DNA of 64,000 nucleotides from Oidiodendron maius Zn. Taxonomy: Eukaryota > Ascomycota > Leotiomycetes > Myxotrichaceae. The translations under genes and the position numbers were made by a program. Below, one piece after another: positions 54,328 through 63,684 of this stretch. The DNA is taken from contig KN832871.1 in assembly GCA_000827325.1 (NCBI GenBank), positions 1,426,001 to 1,490,000 of the forward strand, in the 5' to 3' direction. Below the pieces are notes generated by a model that did no database searches, had not been told where the DNA came from, and saw only the letters and a list, made by a program, of their open reading frames with translations. Within the stretch, counting starts at the first letter, position 1. Each line of letters opens with the position of its first letter.

Positions 54328-54657
54328 GAGGTAGTGATGGAAAGAGGGTAGTGAAGAAAAGAGGGTAGTGGTGAAAAGAGAGTAGTGATGAAAAGAGAGT
54401 AGTGATGAAAAGAGGGTAGTGATGAAAAGAGAATAGTGATGAAAAGAGAGTAGTGATGAAAAGAGAGTAGTGATGAAAAGAAGAGTAGTGATGAAAAGAG
54501 AGTAGTGATGAAAGGAGGGTAGTGATGAAAGGAGGGTAGTGATGAAAAGAGAGTAGTGATGAAAGGAGGGTAGTGATGAAAAGAAGATAGCGATGAAAAG
54601 AGAGTAGCGATGAAAAGGAGATAGCGATGACAAGAGGGTAATAATGAAAATAGGGTA
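54328..54657. repeat. 17-bp minisatellite, about 19 copies
   Basis: Tandem copies of a unit like AGAGTAGTGATGAAAAG, with scattered substitutions and a few length changes at the ends. Because 17 is not a multiple of 3, the minus strand stays open in shifted frames with a 17-residue period (SSLLSFHHYSLFITTLF). I regard that as a by-product, not a protein. Confidence 0.9.
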
Positions 54658-54918
54658 GGCACGTCGGAGTTCTCGCGATACCATATCACCGACGATGTGG
54701 TCCTTGTCATGAGAAAGGTGGTCGCGGATTTTGGGGAGTGCGTTGCGCATTTGTACGACATCGTTCGGGTCAGCCTGCATTGCTTCTACCCACGCTTTGT
54801 TGTTGTGTCACACGCCAAGTATCCTTTTTCAAGAGAGCGGTCAAGTTCTTGCTCCAAATACTTTTATTAGAATAATCATTGGGAAAGAACAAGATGTACT
54901 CGGTAACGAGATCATCTG

Positions 54919-59289: not shown

Positions 59290-60512
59290 TGCGCCATGAA
59301 GAATGCCGTTGATAATATATGCGACATGGCCTGAGAGGACGGATACACGTGTCGGTCTATAGGGAGAGCAGGGCAGCTGGCCTGATGGCTGATATAGGCT
59401 TAAGGGGCAAACAGGGCAGAGGGCGTGGGGGATTGTATTCTGGTCCGTACGATCCCCCTAAACTAGGGAGGAGAGGGTGAGCCTGTGGGCAAAAGACCTG
59501 ACCCCTAGAGGGAAGCGTGGTGGGAGCTGGCTACTCCCTCTTATATTGTAGATTACTATAAGGGTTACAGTACTATAATATAATTCTGTTCCTGCCGTCC
59601 GAACCACTTTTATGTTTAGTCGCAGACCAGAACCAGAACAGCAAAGGCGACTATGAGAAGATAGACCTCAACCTCTTTGAACAAGCGCTCTACGCACACC
59701 TCCTGTAAGTGCAGGGTAACGAGGACACTACAGAGTAAGACCAGATAGTAGACAAGATTACAACCTCGCTCCAAGCAGCCATTGACGTGTCTACCCCTCT
59801 AGCACGAATATCGAGTTGCTTTATATATATTGATGCCTATACAGAGGCTGGTATAAAGGTAGGGAATTACAGGTGAAATACAGGTGATAGTATCTTATAG
59901 GCTTCTAGGATAACACCTATATCTTAAAGTAGAGTTCAATTTAAAGGTAGACTATTTCTTATAGAACCCTTAAAGAGGATCACTCTCTTTTAACTAGAGT
60001 CTAACTTCTATAATCTAGGAGTTATTATAGCTACATCCGCAAATCGGGGCGACGCCAACGGCGCCAAGAGCTCCACGGATGCAAGTCGATTATTTTGGCA
60101 CCAGATAAAACACTATACGACCAACTAGTAGAGGGTCGAGTATTTTGGTACCATTGGCAAATGGTCTGTGCAACTGGTAGAGTGTATTATTATTATTAGG
60201 ATTATTAGGATTATTAGGATTATTAGGATTATTAGGATTATTAGGATTATTAGGATTATTAGTGTCAAAGGTTACATGATCGAGGGATTCATCAGTATGT
60301 GTGTGGAATCGTTGTTATTGAGTTGACTAAAGGTTCTAAGATGCATATAACCACACAATATATGGTGCGCCGCCACCGCTACGTTATGGATATTCAGATC
60401 ACCCGTTTGGATCCGAATGCCCGAATATCCTTCACACACCCCTCGATTCTGAGGTGTAGGTCCGTAACCGCAGCCGTAGAATCGGTGCAATCCCTTCTTC
60501 ATTGTTGAGAGG
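59290..60512. other. Gap within the mobile-element island: TA-rich stretch and 9-bp repeat
   Basis: No gene. Bases 59780-60030 are notably TA-rich, as repeat-induced mutation leaves in ascomycetes. A 9-bp minisatellite follows (60187-60262). The part from about 60270 to 60500 may be LTR or 3' UTR of the Copia fragment, but I could not fix LTR ends. Confidence 0.4.
60187..60262. repeat. 9-bp minisatellite (ATTAGGATT)
   Basis: About eight tandem copies of ATTAGGATT, adjoining the Copia fragment. It resembles but is not the TTAGGG telomere repeat. Confidence 0.9.
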
Positions 60513-61097
60513 TCACTCCTCTGCCTGATCAGGTGGAACAACCCACCTAAGGCCCAGCTGAGATACAAAGCTCTTATGCTTTGCAGGTCCCAGTGGCTTG
60601 GTCAGTCCATCCGCAGCCATATCCTCCGTCAGGCAGTACCAGAATCGTACAACACCCTTACTACGCTCTTCCCTAAGGTAGTGATATTTAACTGCGATGT
60701 GTTTGGTGCGTTGATGCAGCTCAGGATTCTCTGTAAGGGCTAAGGAACCCTGGTTATCACCGTATATCTTGATGCACTTTACATCCTTTAAGTTCCAGCC
60801 AAGCTCTTTAAATATATACCGCAGCCAGGCTGCTTCAACTGTAGCCTTATACAGCCTGTAATATTCAGCTTCTATTGTGGATAAAGCCGTAATTGACTGG
60901 CGCTTCGATTGACTGGATATTAAGCCACCCGCAAACAGGAAGACGTATCCGGAAGTTGACTTGCGCAGCTCGATATCACCTACAAAGTCCGAATCTGAAT
61001 AGCCATACAGAGCTCCCTTGTCTGGATCAGAGTCTAAGTTGCCTCCACGCACCACTGCCAGGTATTTCAATCCTTGGATATATCGGAGCAGCCGATT
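60513..61097 (-). mobile_element. Fossil Ty1/Copia-type LTR retrotransposon fragment (RNase H end of pol)
   Basis: The minus strand encodes the Copia RNase H region: GYSDSDFVGDIELRKSTSGY, LISSQSKRQSITALSTIEAE, IYGDNQGSLALTENP, RTKHIAVKYHYLRE, and the closing ADGLTKPL. The upstream parts of pol are absent next to it and paired LTRs could not be defined, so this is a partial, broken copy. The preserved reading frame suggests it is younger than the neighbouring Gypsy fragment. Confidence 0.9.
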
Positions 61098-61293
61098 TTT
61101 TTACCGATAACACGCCTGCGGTGAACATGCGCCGTCCATAATACAGTAATTAATTAGTAATCTCGGGGCATGGATCTGGTGGATCATATCGCGGGAATGG
61201 AGCCAGAGGATCGTAAACTTGCTACTGCTACATATGGGAAGTTCCCTCAGAAGTAGCCTAGATACTTTAAAGTGCTTGCATTTCACGAAAACC

Positions 61294-61507
61294 CACCAGT
61301 GGTTGTCAGAATTGAGGAATAACCGAAAAGTTTCGCAAGTGTAATACTTCAACAACTGCAAGATTAAGACGTATAAAAAGTTAATATAAATATAATAGAA
61401 GCTGTAAATAATAGTTCTGCCTATTTAAAAATTTAATATTCTATTGTGTTGAAAAGTTATATATTAGTAGCAGTTTTCGATTGTTCATCAATTCTGACAC
61501 ACTGGTG
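61294..61507. mobile_element. MITE-like element A of tandem array (214 bp)
   Basis: Begins CACCAGTGG and ends CTGGTG. Its ends are imperfect inverted repeats of about 37 bp, sharing TGTCAGAATTGA. It is flanked by ACC on the left and GGT on the right. AT-rich interior, no coding capacity. Bases 61294-61500 are identical to the reverse complement of 62176-62382 (element E). Confidence 0.85.
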
Positions 61508-61517
61508 GGTGGTGGGT

Positions 61518-61736
61518 CACCAGGGGGTGTCAGAATTGATGGCACAGGTGCATACCCAACTTCTTCTTCTATATTACTATAACGCGCTCTCCCACCAGAT
61601 TCCACTACTAATTTACATCGATTAGGCATCTCAGATATATGCGCACGAACTTTTTCCATTTTAATGTTGCTCCATTGCTAATGTGGTATTTCAGCTAAAG
61701 TGGTGCCTGTGCCATCAATTCTGACACCCCCTGGTG
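61518..61736. mobile_element. MITE-like element B of tandem array (219 bp)
   Basis: Begins CACCAGGGGG and ends CCCCCTGGTG. The terminal inverted repeats are perfect over 31 bp (61518-61548 with 61706-61736) and include TGTCAGAATTGATGG. The interior is unlike A. It is separated from C by GTC. Confidence 0.85.
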
Positions 61737-61739
61737 GTC

Positions 61740-61946
61740 CACCAGGGGTTGCAAGGACACTCGAAGTTCAAAACTGCTTATAAATTTCCAACGCAAAACA
61801 AGAGAAAAATTCCCAAGAGCCCATTTTGTTCTCCGTAATTAGCTCTATATCTCAGTGTATTTTATGTTTATTCAAAAAGTGTGGTTTGTGTCGCGAACTA
61901 CTATTGACTTTCGTGGGTGTCCCATGAGCTGCTGCAACCCCTGGTG
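61740..61946. mobile_element. MITE-like element C of tandem array (207 bp)
   Basis: Begins CACCAGGGGTTGCA and ends with its exact complement; beyond these 14 bp the inverted repeat continues imperfectly with a GGACAC motif. The interior left side (CTGCTTATAAATTTCCAACG) resembles the interior of element E, which supports common descent. It is separated from D by GGT. Confidence 0.8.
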
Positions 61947-61949
61947 GGT

Positions 61950-62163
61950 CACCAGTGGGTGCATTAATTCATGGGACACCTGAATTTTATCACACGCTTC
62001 TAACTTTACAACACAATATAATTAAAGCTTCTAAATTGATGAGAACATTCGCTATACTGAGTTCTCTATTTTTACAGCTTTAGTTTTGTTTTAGGCTCGA
62101 AATTGTGAAAGAAATCCCGATTGTAAATTTCACGTGTCCCATGAATTAGTGCACCCACTGGTG
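61950..62163. mobile_element. MITE-like element D of tandem array (214 bp)
   Basis: Begins CACCAGTGGGTGC and ends GCACCCACTGGTG. The inverted repeats match for about 30 bp with one mismatch and include AATTCATGGGACAC. The same GGT trinucleotide lies on both sides (61947-61949 and 62164-62166), as a 3-bp target duplication would. Confidence 0.85.
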
Positions 62164-62166
62164 GGT

Positions 62167-62382
62167 TACCAGTAGGTGTCAGAATTGATGAACAATCGAA
62201 AACTGCTACTAATATATAACTTTTCAACACAATAGAATATTAAATTTTTAAATAGGCAGAACTATTATTTACAGCTTCTATTATATTTATATTAACTTTT
62301 TATACGTCTTAATCTTGCAGTTGTTGAAGTATTACACTTGCGAAACTTTTCGGTTATTCCTCAATTCTGACAACCACTGGTG
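62167..62382. mobile_element. MITE-like element E of tandem array (216 bp)
   Basis: Begins TACCAG and ends CTGGTG, with the TGTCAGAATTGATG-type ends of element A. It is the inverted twin of A (207 identical bases). It overlaps the 3' end of the minus-strand ORF 62354-62932. Confidence 0.85.
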
Positions 62383-62932
62383 ACCTAATGCAATAAAACG
62401 AAATCCATGCGATAAACCTAATTCCTTCCTTGCTCCCGGTCACATGAGGCCAAATTTCCCTAGAAATCTCTTCATGATTCCAGGCTCCGTTTCGACATTC
62501 GTACGTTGGTGGGCCCATATCTGGGAATTCGCTCCGCAGCCATCGATGCGTAATTGCTATTGACTCTGTCGGATTCTCATGGAAAGTTTTTTTGAGTGCA
62601 GTTTCCATACGCTTACCCATTTTCTCATATTTCTGGCTCCCACCCTTCTGCCTCTTCACTCTTCTCCTCTTCCGGCTCTTCTTCTTCTGCCTATTGTCGA
62701 ATGATTCTTCAAAGCCACTCTTGGTTCCTTGGGATGGTTTTCCGGTCTTAGGCGGTTGATCTTCCGCGGACATACTGGGAGGGGCCGGGGCATGGTATTT
62801 GGTTTTTTCCACACTGTTCTGGAAAGGGCGGTCAGGAAGATTGTTTGACGAGGGACGAGGGGTCTGGGAAGGGTTCTCCTGAAGCTCCTCTCCTTCCCCG
62901 TCCATCATGTCTTCTTCTTCCTCATCCACCAT
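62354..62932 (-). CDS. Lysine-rich protein of unknown function, 3' end inside element E
   Basis: A 192-codon frame from ATG at 62932 (MVDEEEEDMMDGEGEEL). It is acidic at the start, Pro/Ser-rich in the middle, and has a strongly basic run (RQKKKSRKRRRVKRQK, about residues 80-97) that resembles a nuclear localisation signal. A folded-looking end follows (WLRSEFPDMGPPTYECRNGA, WNHEEISREIWPHVTG). The last codons and the stop lie in or next to the end of element E, so the original C-terminus is probably replaced. I do not recognise it. It may be a truncated host gene or part of an unknown mobile element; expression is uncertain. Confidence 0.4.
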   Translation of the reverse strand: MVDEEEEDMMDGEGEELQENPSQTPRPSSNNLPDRPFQNSVEKTKYHAPAPPSMSAEDQPPKTGKPSQGTKSGFEESFDNRQKKKSRKRRRVKRQKGGSQKYEKMGKRMETALKKTFHENPTESIAITHRWLRSEFPDMGPPTYECRNGAWNHEEISREIWPHVTGSKEGIRFIAWISFYCIRSPVVVRIEE

Positions 62933-63684
62933 GGGAGAACGTTCCGCTAGTGGAAAGCGAGCTGGCCGGTTGATAGCCGGTTGCTGGGAAAAGGAAAGGC
63001 GAGCTTAAAGATATAACAACTAATTCAACCACCCTTTTTGACCCTATATTGCATATACAGTATCACCGGAGTGATACAAACACTTAACAAGAGCTTCAAG
63101 TCCCGTTAGTTAACGAGAGCTCCGATAATCGATTCGTGGGTCCTTTCGGTAACTGTCTGCGCTCTGTATGTCCAATACCGTCTAGTGAAAATTTTTCATA
63201 CACCCCAGAGGTGTCCTATCGTACAATCTAGGCAACCGGTTCAATAAGTTTAATTGATTGATTCTGCAGTTGTATCAAGGGCCTGCTCCCTAGACAGGCA
63301 GATCGTATATCGGATGGTACCTATTTTGATGGTAGTCCTCTGTTCTGGTGTTGTGCCGTACGGTCGCACGGTCGCAATCAGGGCGCCACCCCTTCGTACG
63401 ATCGTAACAACACAACAACTCAGCTCCATAGAATGCGCTGGTCTCCCGTTGGCTCTAGAGCAGTAGAACTGACCCTAGGTTTGTAGCCAGCACCACGTAC
63501 AGGTGGGAGTTCGACTTTGCTGGCCCTAGTGTTTTGGTGTTTTCGGCTAAAATGCACCCTGGTGAGGCATGCACGTGCGATGATGACTAATGATCGGCTA
63601 ATCTCTTAGCGCGCACTTTTCGTTATCCAAAACTTTCCCTTTCGTAAATTTCAATAACTCCAGCTCCTCAAACTCTACCGCAAC
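62933..63684. other. Intergenic: RPL12 promoter
   Basis: About 750 bp. An ACCCTA core (63472-63477), as in Tbf1-type sites, lies about 210 bp before the uL11 start. No gene was recognised. Confidence 0.4.

Follow-up and report, generated by a model that had tools for sequence, protein, structure and literature searches.

A regular array of five MITE-like inverted-repeat units in the fungus Oidiodendron maius

The locus and its surroundings

The window analysed here is a stretch of 64,000 nt from contig KN832871.1 of Oidiodendron maius Zn (assembly GCA_000827325.1, positions 1,426,001–1,490,000, forward strand), and all coordinates below refer to it. Its genes are typical of eukaryotes and include a myotubularin-like phosphatase, PheRS beta, tRNase Z, Sec23/24, ELO and DUF2420. 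Near its right end, a block of 1089 bp (61294–62382) is occupied by five consecutive inverted-repeat units, designated U1 to U5. The only Rfam matches in the window, snR32 and snR36, belong to families that occur in yeasts and other fungi and lie outside the array; at the array itself no Rfam family was matched, and no Pfam family was found in the tested ORFs over it. A transposase family was recognized neither in the nearby ORFs tested nor among the longest ORFs of the rest of the window.

To the left of the array lies a minus-strand ORF (60516–61100) that we take to be a truncated fragment of a Copia-type RNase H, judging from the motifs TSGYVF and STIEAEY. A Pfam search with this ORF gave no match, a PDB search did not confirm the assignment, and no LTRs (long direct repeats) were found near it. 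To the right, a minus-strand ORF (62357–63004) has a sub-threshold match to SR-25. Simple tandem repeats also occur in the window. A 17-bp repeat at 54330–54658 (consensus GGTAGTGATGAAAAGAG, 19.3 copies, 87% matches) overlaps two long minus-strand ORFs, although its period is not divisible by 3. At 60192–60262, a perfect 9-bp repeat, ATTATTAGG, is present in 7.9 copies and is read in a minus-strand frame as an Asn-Pro-Asn repeat.

Units, ends and junctions

All ten unit ends carry (C/T)ACCAG, and each unit possesses inverted arms of its own. The original prediction had proposed five such units, and their coordinates and lengths were confirmed. U1 (61294–61507, 214 bp) lies on the minus strand as an inverted copy of U5 (62167–62382, 216 bp), which is on the plus strand and has the inner tip TACCAGTAGG; the terminal inverted repeats of these two units match at about 33 of 36 positions with small gaps. 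U2 (61518–61736, 219 bp) has tips of the TGTCAGAATTGATG type and terminal inverted repeats that are perfect over 31 bp (31/31). U3 (61740–61946, 207 bp), probably oriented on the plus strand as are U4 and U5, carries tips of the CATGGGACAC type that match at 14 of 14 positions; about 9 bp of the right arm are probably missing from its left arm, through a deletion in one arm. U4 (61950–62163, 214 bp), also on the plus strand, has inverted ends agreeing at 37 of 40 positions, forms a nearly full-length hairpin and is bordered by GGT on both sides. The ends fall into two groups as had been claimed, with U1, U2 and U5 in one and U3 and U4 in the other. The two arms of a unit agree more with each other than with the arms of other units, except in U1 and U5, which are mutual copies. 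For instance, the ends of U2 and U4 have only about 28 of 40 positions in common, although the arms of U2 are perfect over 31 bp.

The array stands far above chance by tip counts, by a profile of the five units and by hairpin folding. With up to 2 mismatches allowed, the TGTCAGAATTGATG tip occurs at 7 sites in the window, 6 of them inside the array, where 0.74 would be expected by chance; a count of 7 was reached in none of 100 shuffles. The five-unit profile, run over the window, matched U1 to U5 and their own reverse-strand matches only, and no second copy of any unit was found elsewhere in the 64 kb. Every unit folds into a hairpin better than its dinucleotide shuffles (z = −3.6 to −14.2), comparably on both strands, with U4 giving z-scores of −14.2 and −9.7. 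Short (207–219 bp), low in G+C (29–44%), capable of hairpin formation and bounded by inverted arms, the units are MITE-like. MITEs are short non-coding DNA transposons that rely on a transposase encoded elsewhere.

The folding could alternatively be that of a structured RNA locus, in which tandem hairpins or one long RNA-interference hairpin are kept for function, and a full transcript of the array could indeed form a perfect duplex of 207 bp. Nevertheless, a preference for one strand is not seen in the folding, the arms match as inverted repeats at the level of DNA, no Rfam family is recognized, and the tips and target-like flanks fit transposons. A functional RNA is accordingly a very improbable explanation.

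The four junctions between neighbouring units all derive from CTGGTGGGTYACCAG, that is, they are variants of CTGGTG-GGT-(C/T)ACCAG. The U3/U4 spacer (61947–61949) and the U4/U5 spacer (62164–62166) are both GGT, within the junctions CTGGTGGGTCACCAG (CTGGTG-GGT-CACCAG) and CTGGTGGGTTACCAG (CTGGTG-GGT-TACCAG), respectively. The U2/U3 spacer (61737–61739) is GTC, and its junction, CTGGTGGTCCACCAG (CTGGTG-GTC-CACCAG), has two differences from the consensus. The U1/U2 spacer (61508–61517), GGTGGTGGGT, is 10 bp long and a near-match to the consensus; the junction reads CT-GGTGGGT-GGTGGGT-CACCAG and is best explained as the usual GGT junction in which the 7 bp GGTGGGT have been duplicated in tandem. 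Since the four junctions are variants of one form, a single spacer GGT underlies them all, with two bases changed at U2/U3.

The inverted outer pair, the flanks and the interiors

Reverse-complemented, U1 agrees with U5 at 207 of 207 positions (61294–61500 and 62176–62382). At the outer CACCAG tips the identity breaks off precisely; beyond them the flanks are unrelated except for an ACC on both sides, and the inner ends of the two units differ within their last 7–9 bases. That the identity is limited by the outer tips lends independent support to the tips chosen in the original prediction. The description of the array as a head-to-tail train holds for a part of it, with U1 inverted relative to U4 and U5. 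A perfect inverted copy of 207 bp might also be produced by a chimeric inverted join during assembly. However, a chimeric fold-back would bring outer flank into the repeat, and here the identity stops at both outer tips while the inner tips differ; such an artefact is therefore hardly credible.

The ACC to the left (61291–61293) and the ACC to the right (62383–62385) of the block are probably the two copies of a 3-bp target site duplication around the whole of it, a match that is short and hence weak. Tip offsets and lengths were varied per unit and per block in a scan for duplications, and ACC/ACC at offset 0 was the sole duplication longer than 2 bp around the U1–U5 span. In the same scan GGT/GGT flanks were found for U4, for the U2–U4 block and for the U2–U3 block; no matching 3-bp flank pair was found for U1, U2, U3 or U5 singly. 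As a 4-bp alternative, U3 has GGTC on both sides, and U2 has GGTC at offset −1. Read on the opposite strand, the inner spacer GGT becomes the outer ACC. The probability that the left flank is GGT or ACC and the right flank matches it is about 0.0004 from the 3-mer frequencies of the window, a value computed after seeing the data. If the tips are taken to start with CAG, the spacers are read as 9 bp and GTGGGTCAC flanks the U2–U3 block on both sides. No such repeat is present outside the whole block, and the boundary at CACCAG with a 3-bp duplication is therefore preferred. The host flanks of the block also hold a short inverted repeat, TTGCATT/AATGCAA (61278–62395), which may be due to chance.

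The whole block could instead be a single non-autonomous DNA transposon of 1089 bp, foldback-like, with U1 and U5 as terminal inverted repeats of about 207 bp and the middle modules as internal or subterminal repeats. The perfect inverted repeats do reach the outer tips, ACC is duplicated around the whole, and different inner tips of U1 and U5 are expected if the identity depends on the outer ends. On the other hand, each inner unit has two (C/T)ACCAG tips of its own together with matching arms, and GGT on both sides of U4 is not needed by one element. We consider a single element unlikely.

The interiors were compared after removal of 45 bp from each unit end, with 300 dinucleotide shuffles as controls. 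The comparisons of U4 with U5 (z 5.2) and of reverse-complemented U1 with U4 (z 5.9) exceeded all 300 shuffles. That of U3 with U4 was weak but present (z 2.9, reached by none of the 300). For the interior of U2, the comparison with U3 did not rise above chance and those with the other units were only marginal. As judged by these alignments, the interiors of U4 and of U5/U1 belong to one family. The original prediction called the interiors diverged, which is borne out by identities of about 63% or less; they are not simply unrelated, as the alignment of U4 with U5 indicates. The RIP composite index is slightly above zero for U1/U5 and negative for U2–U4 and for the array as a whole, and RIP-type mutation was rejected as a general cause of the divergence.

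Related interiors at a regular spacing could also be left by an old, diverged tandem duplication of a 217-bp unit (one unit plus GGT), whose arms were kept matching by hairpin-templated repair and in which U1 was derived from U5 through gene conversion or an inverted duplication. U3 to U5 are in register and probably in the same orientation, the GGT spacer is constant, and in coral full-length CMITEs in tandem arrays have been attributed to replication slippage (PMC2872659). Yet neutral copies would not show interiors of about 63% identity alongside the perfect arms of U2 and the identical U1 and U5, and no array is called here by Tandem Repeats Finder. An old duplication is thus quite improbable. 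A tandem satellite was rejected, as none is called by that program, the interiors are diverged and U1 is inverted. The earlier view that the array is not a simple tandem duplication is supported, in so far as a recent one is meant.

A proposed history and its known counterparts

The reading that we favour, with a probability of about 60%, is that the array is a multimer of five MITE-like elements assembled by serial insertion, followed by movement of the compound block or by inversion between U1 and U5. Assembly from distinct subfamilies is argued for chiefly by the private matching arms of units that differ from one another, which suggest that each was separately mobile before joining. In this scheme the recognized end would be (C/T)ACCAG, and insertion would probably duplicate 3 bp (ACC/GGT). 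A new element would enter the copy of the target beside an existing tip, at a GGT/ACC target, so that neighbours come to share a single GGT. Repeated insertion at the element tip, as originally suggested, fits the shared GGT junctions, and no evidence was found for the replication from the tip that had been offered as the alternative.

The presence of GGT inside and ACC outside, both on the plus strand, calls for an extra step, either movement of the block or an inversion. U1 and U5 would represent one element in opposite orientations. The train might have been built at a GGT site, after which the complete block would have been transposed, as a compound element, into an ACC site. Alternatively, it might have grown in place at ACC, with recombination between U1 and U5 inverting the middle. 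Either history would make all the duplications consistent. If the insertion duplicated ACC, the empty site would read ACGAAAACCTAATGC.

The array is most likely a regular fungal case of a known kind, the MITE multimers. The statement that ordinary MITEs scatter singly was too strong, as multimers or arrays are known in rice, carrot, coral and pithoviruses. In rice, multimers make up 11% of MITEs (Jiang and Wessler 2001 as cited in PMC10664404). Stowaway-like MITEs of carrot are nested and clustered, and the DcSto elements among them resemble the present case in that short inverted-repeat elements have inserted into, or next to, elements of their own or a related family (PMC3695323); in contrast, the five units here abut at their tips across a nearly constant spacer of 3 bp, and the array is bordered by identical units in inverted orientation. 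In pithoviruses, two types of palindromic MITE-like repeat form (M1-M2)n-M1 arrays, in which adjacent repeats have a single copy of the target dinucleotide in common, the nearest parallel to the shared GGT (PMC10664404). They differ in the viral genome, the TA target, the shorter units and the very many copies, whereas the units here are diverged and separated by 3 bp. The coral CMITEs are alike in being complete MITEs arranged in tandem, but their units and spacers are highly similar, their target is TTAA and they are of the piggyBac type (PMC2872659).

Among fungal elements, the mimps of Fusarium (impala, Tc1/mariner) are similar in size, being 180–220 bp with inverted ends of about 27 bp (PMC5579170, PMC3599309). 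Both tips of U4 are 1 mismatch from the mimp tip pattern CAGTGGGNGCAAWAA (taken from PMC6131394), with 0.04 matches expected in the window, and no other unit is within 3 mismatches of it. However, mimps have a TA duplication beside CAG, whereas here CAC/GTG flanks the CAG tips, with TAC on one side of U5. Given the absence of TA flanks, the units are not assigned to mimp despite the tips of U4.

The tips also bear on a second comparison. A 3-bp duplication and a tip beginning with CAC recall the CACTA-type elements, whose terminus is CACTA or CACTG. The units here share only the CAC of that terminus (CACCAG), the ACC/ACC flank is short and hence a weak sign, and no transposase family was recognized in the ORFs tested.

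Relatives of the units were searched for in sequence collections. No relatives were found in IMG/VR and GTDB contigs with the tip and paired-tip patterns, nor in the plasmid and phage collections. The second tip type had a single match of 21 bp across the viral, prokaryote, plasmid and phage collections, which was dismissed as chance; it lies on a phage-like contig on which the unit model is silent, and it has no matching arm. The tip sequences were found in paper texts only in unrelated papers, judged by title.

As a single locus, the array mainly extends the known MITE multimers by a fungal case whose junctions are clean. It is unusually regular and hints at movement of the block in one piece. 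Tentatively, and with more doubt than attaches to serial insertion itself, MITEs with CACCAG tips could prefer the 3-bp duplication beside a family member as their target, and matching outer units could let the train move as a compound element. If so, MITE subfamilies would spread in a fungus as linked cassettes. Should the block occur as a unit elsewhere, it would be a clear case of non-autonomous elements forming a compound transposon and would show that tip-adjacent target choice can build ordered arrays.

The array may also touch its right-hand neighbour. The last codons of a minus-strand ORF of 192 aa (62354–62932) fall inside U5, and the element may thus supply the stop codon of the neighbouring gene.
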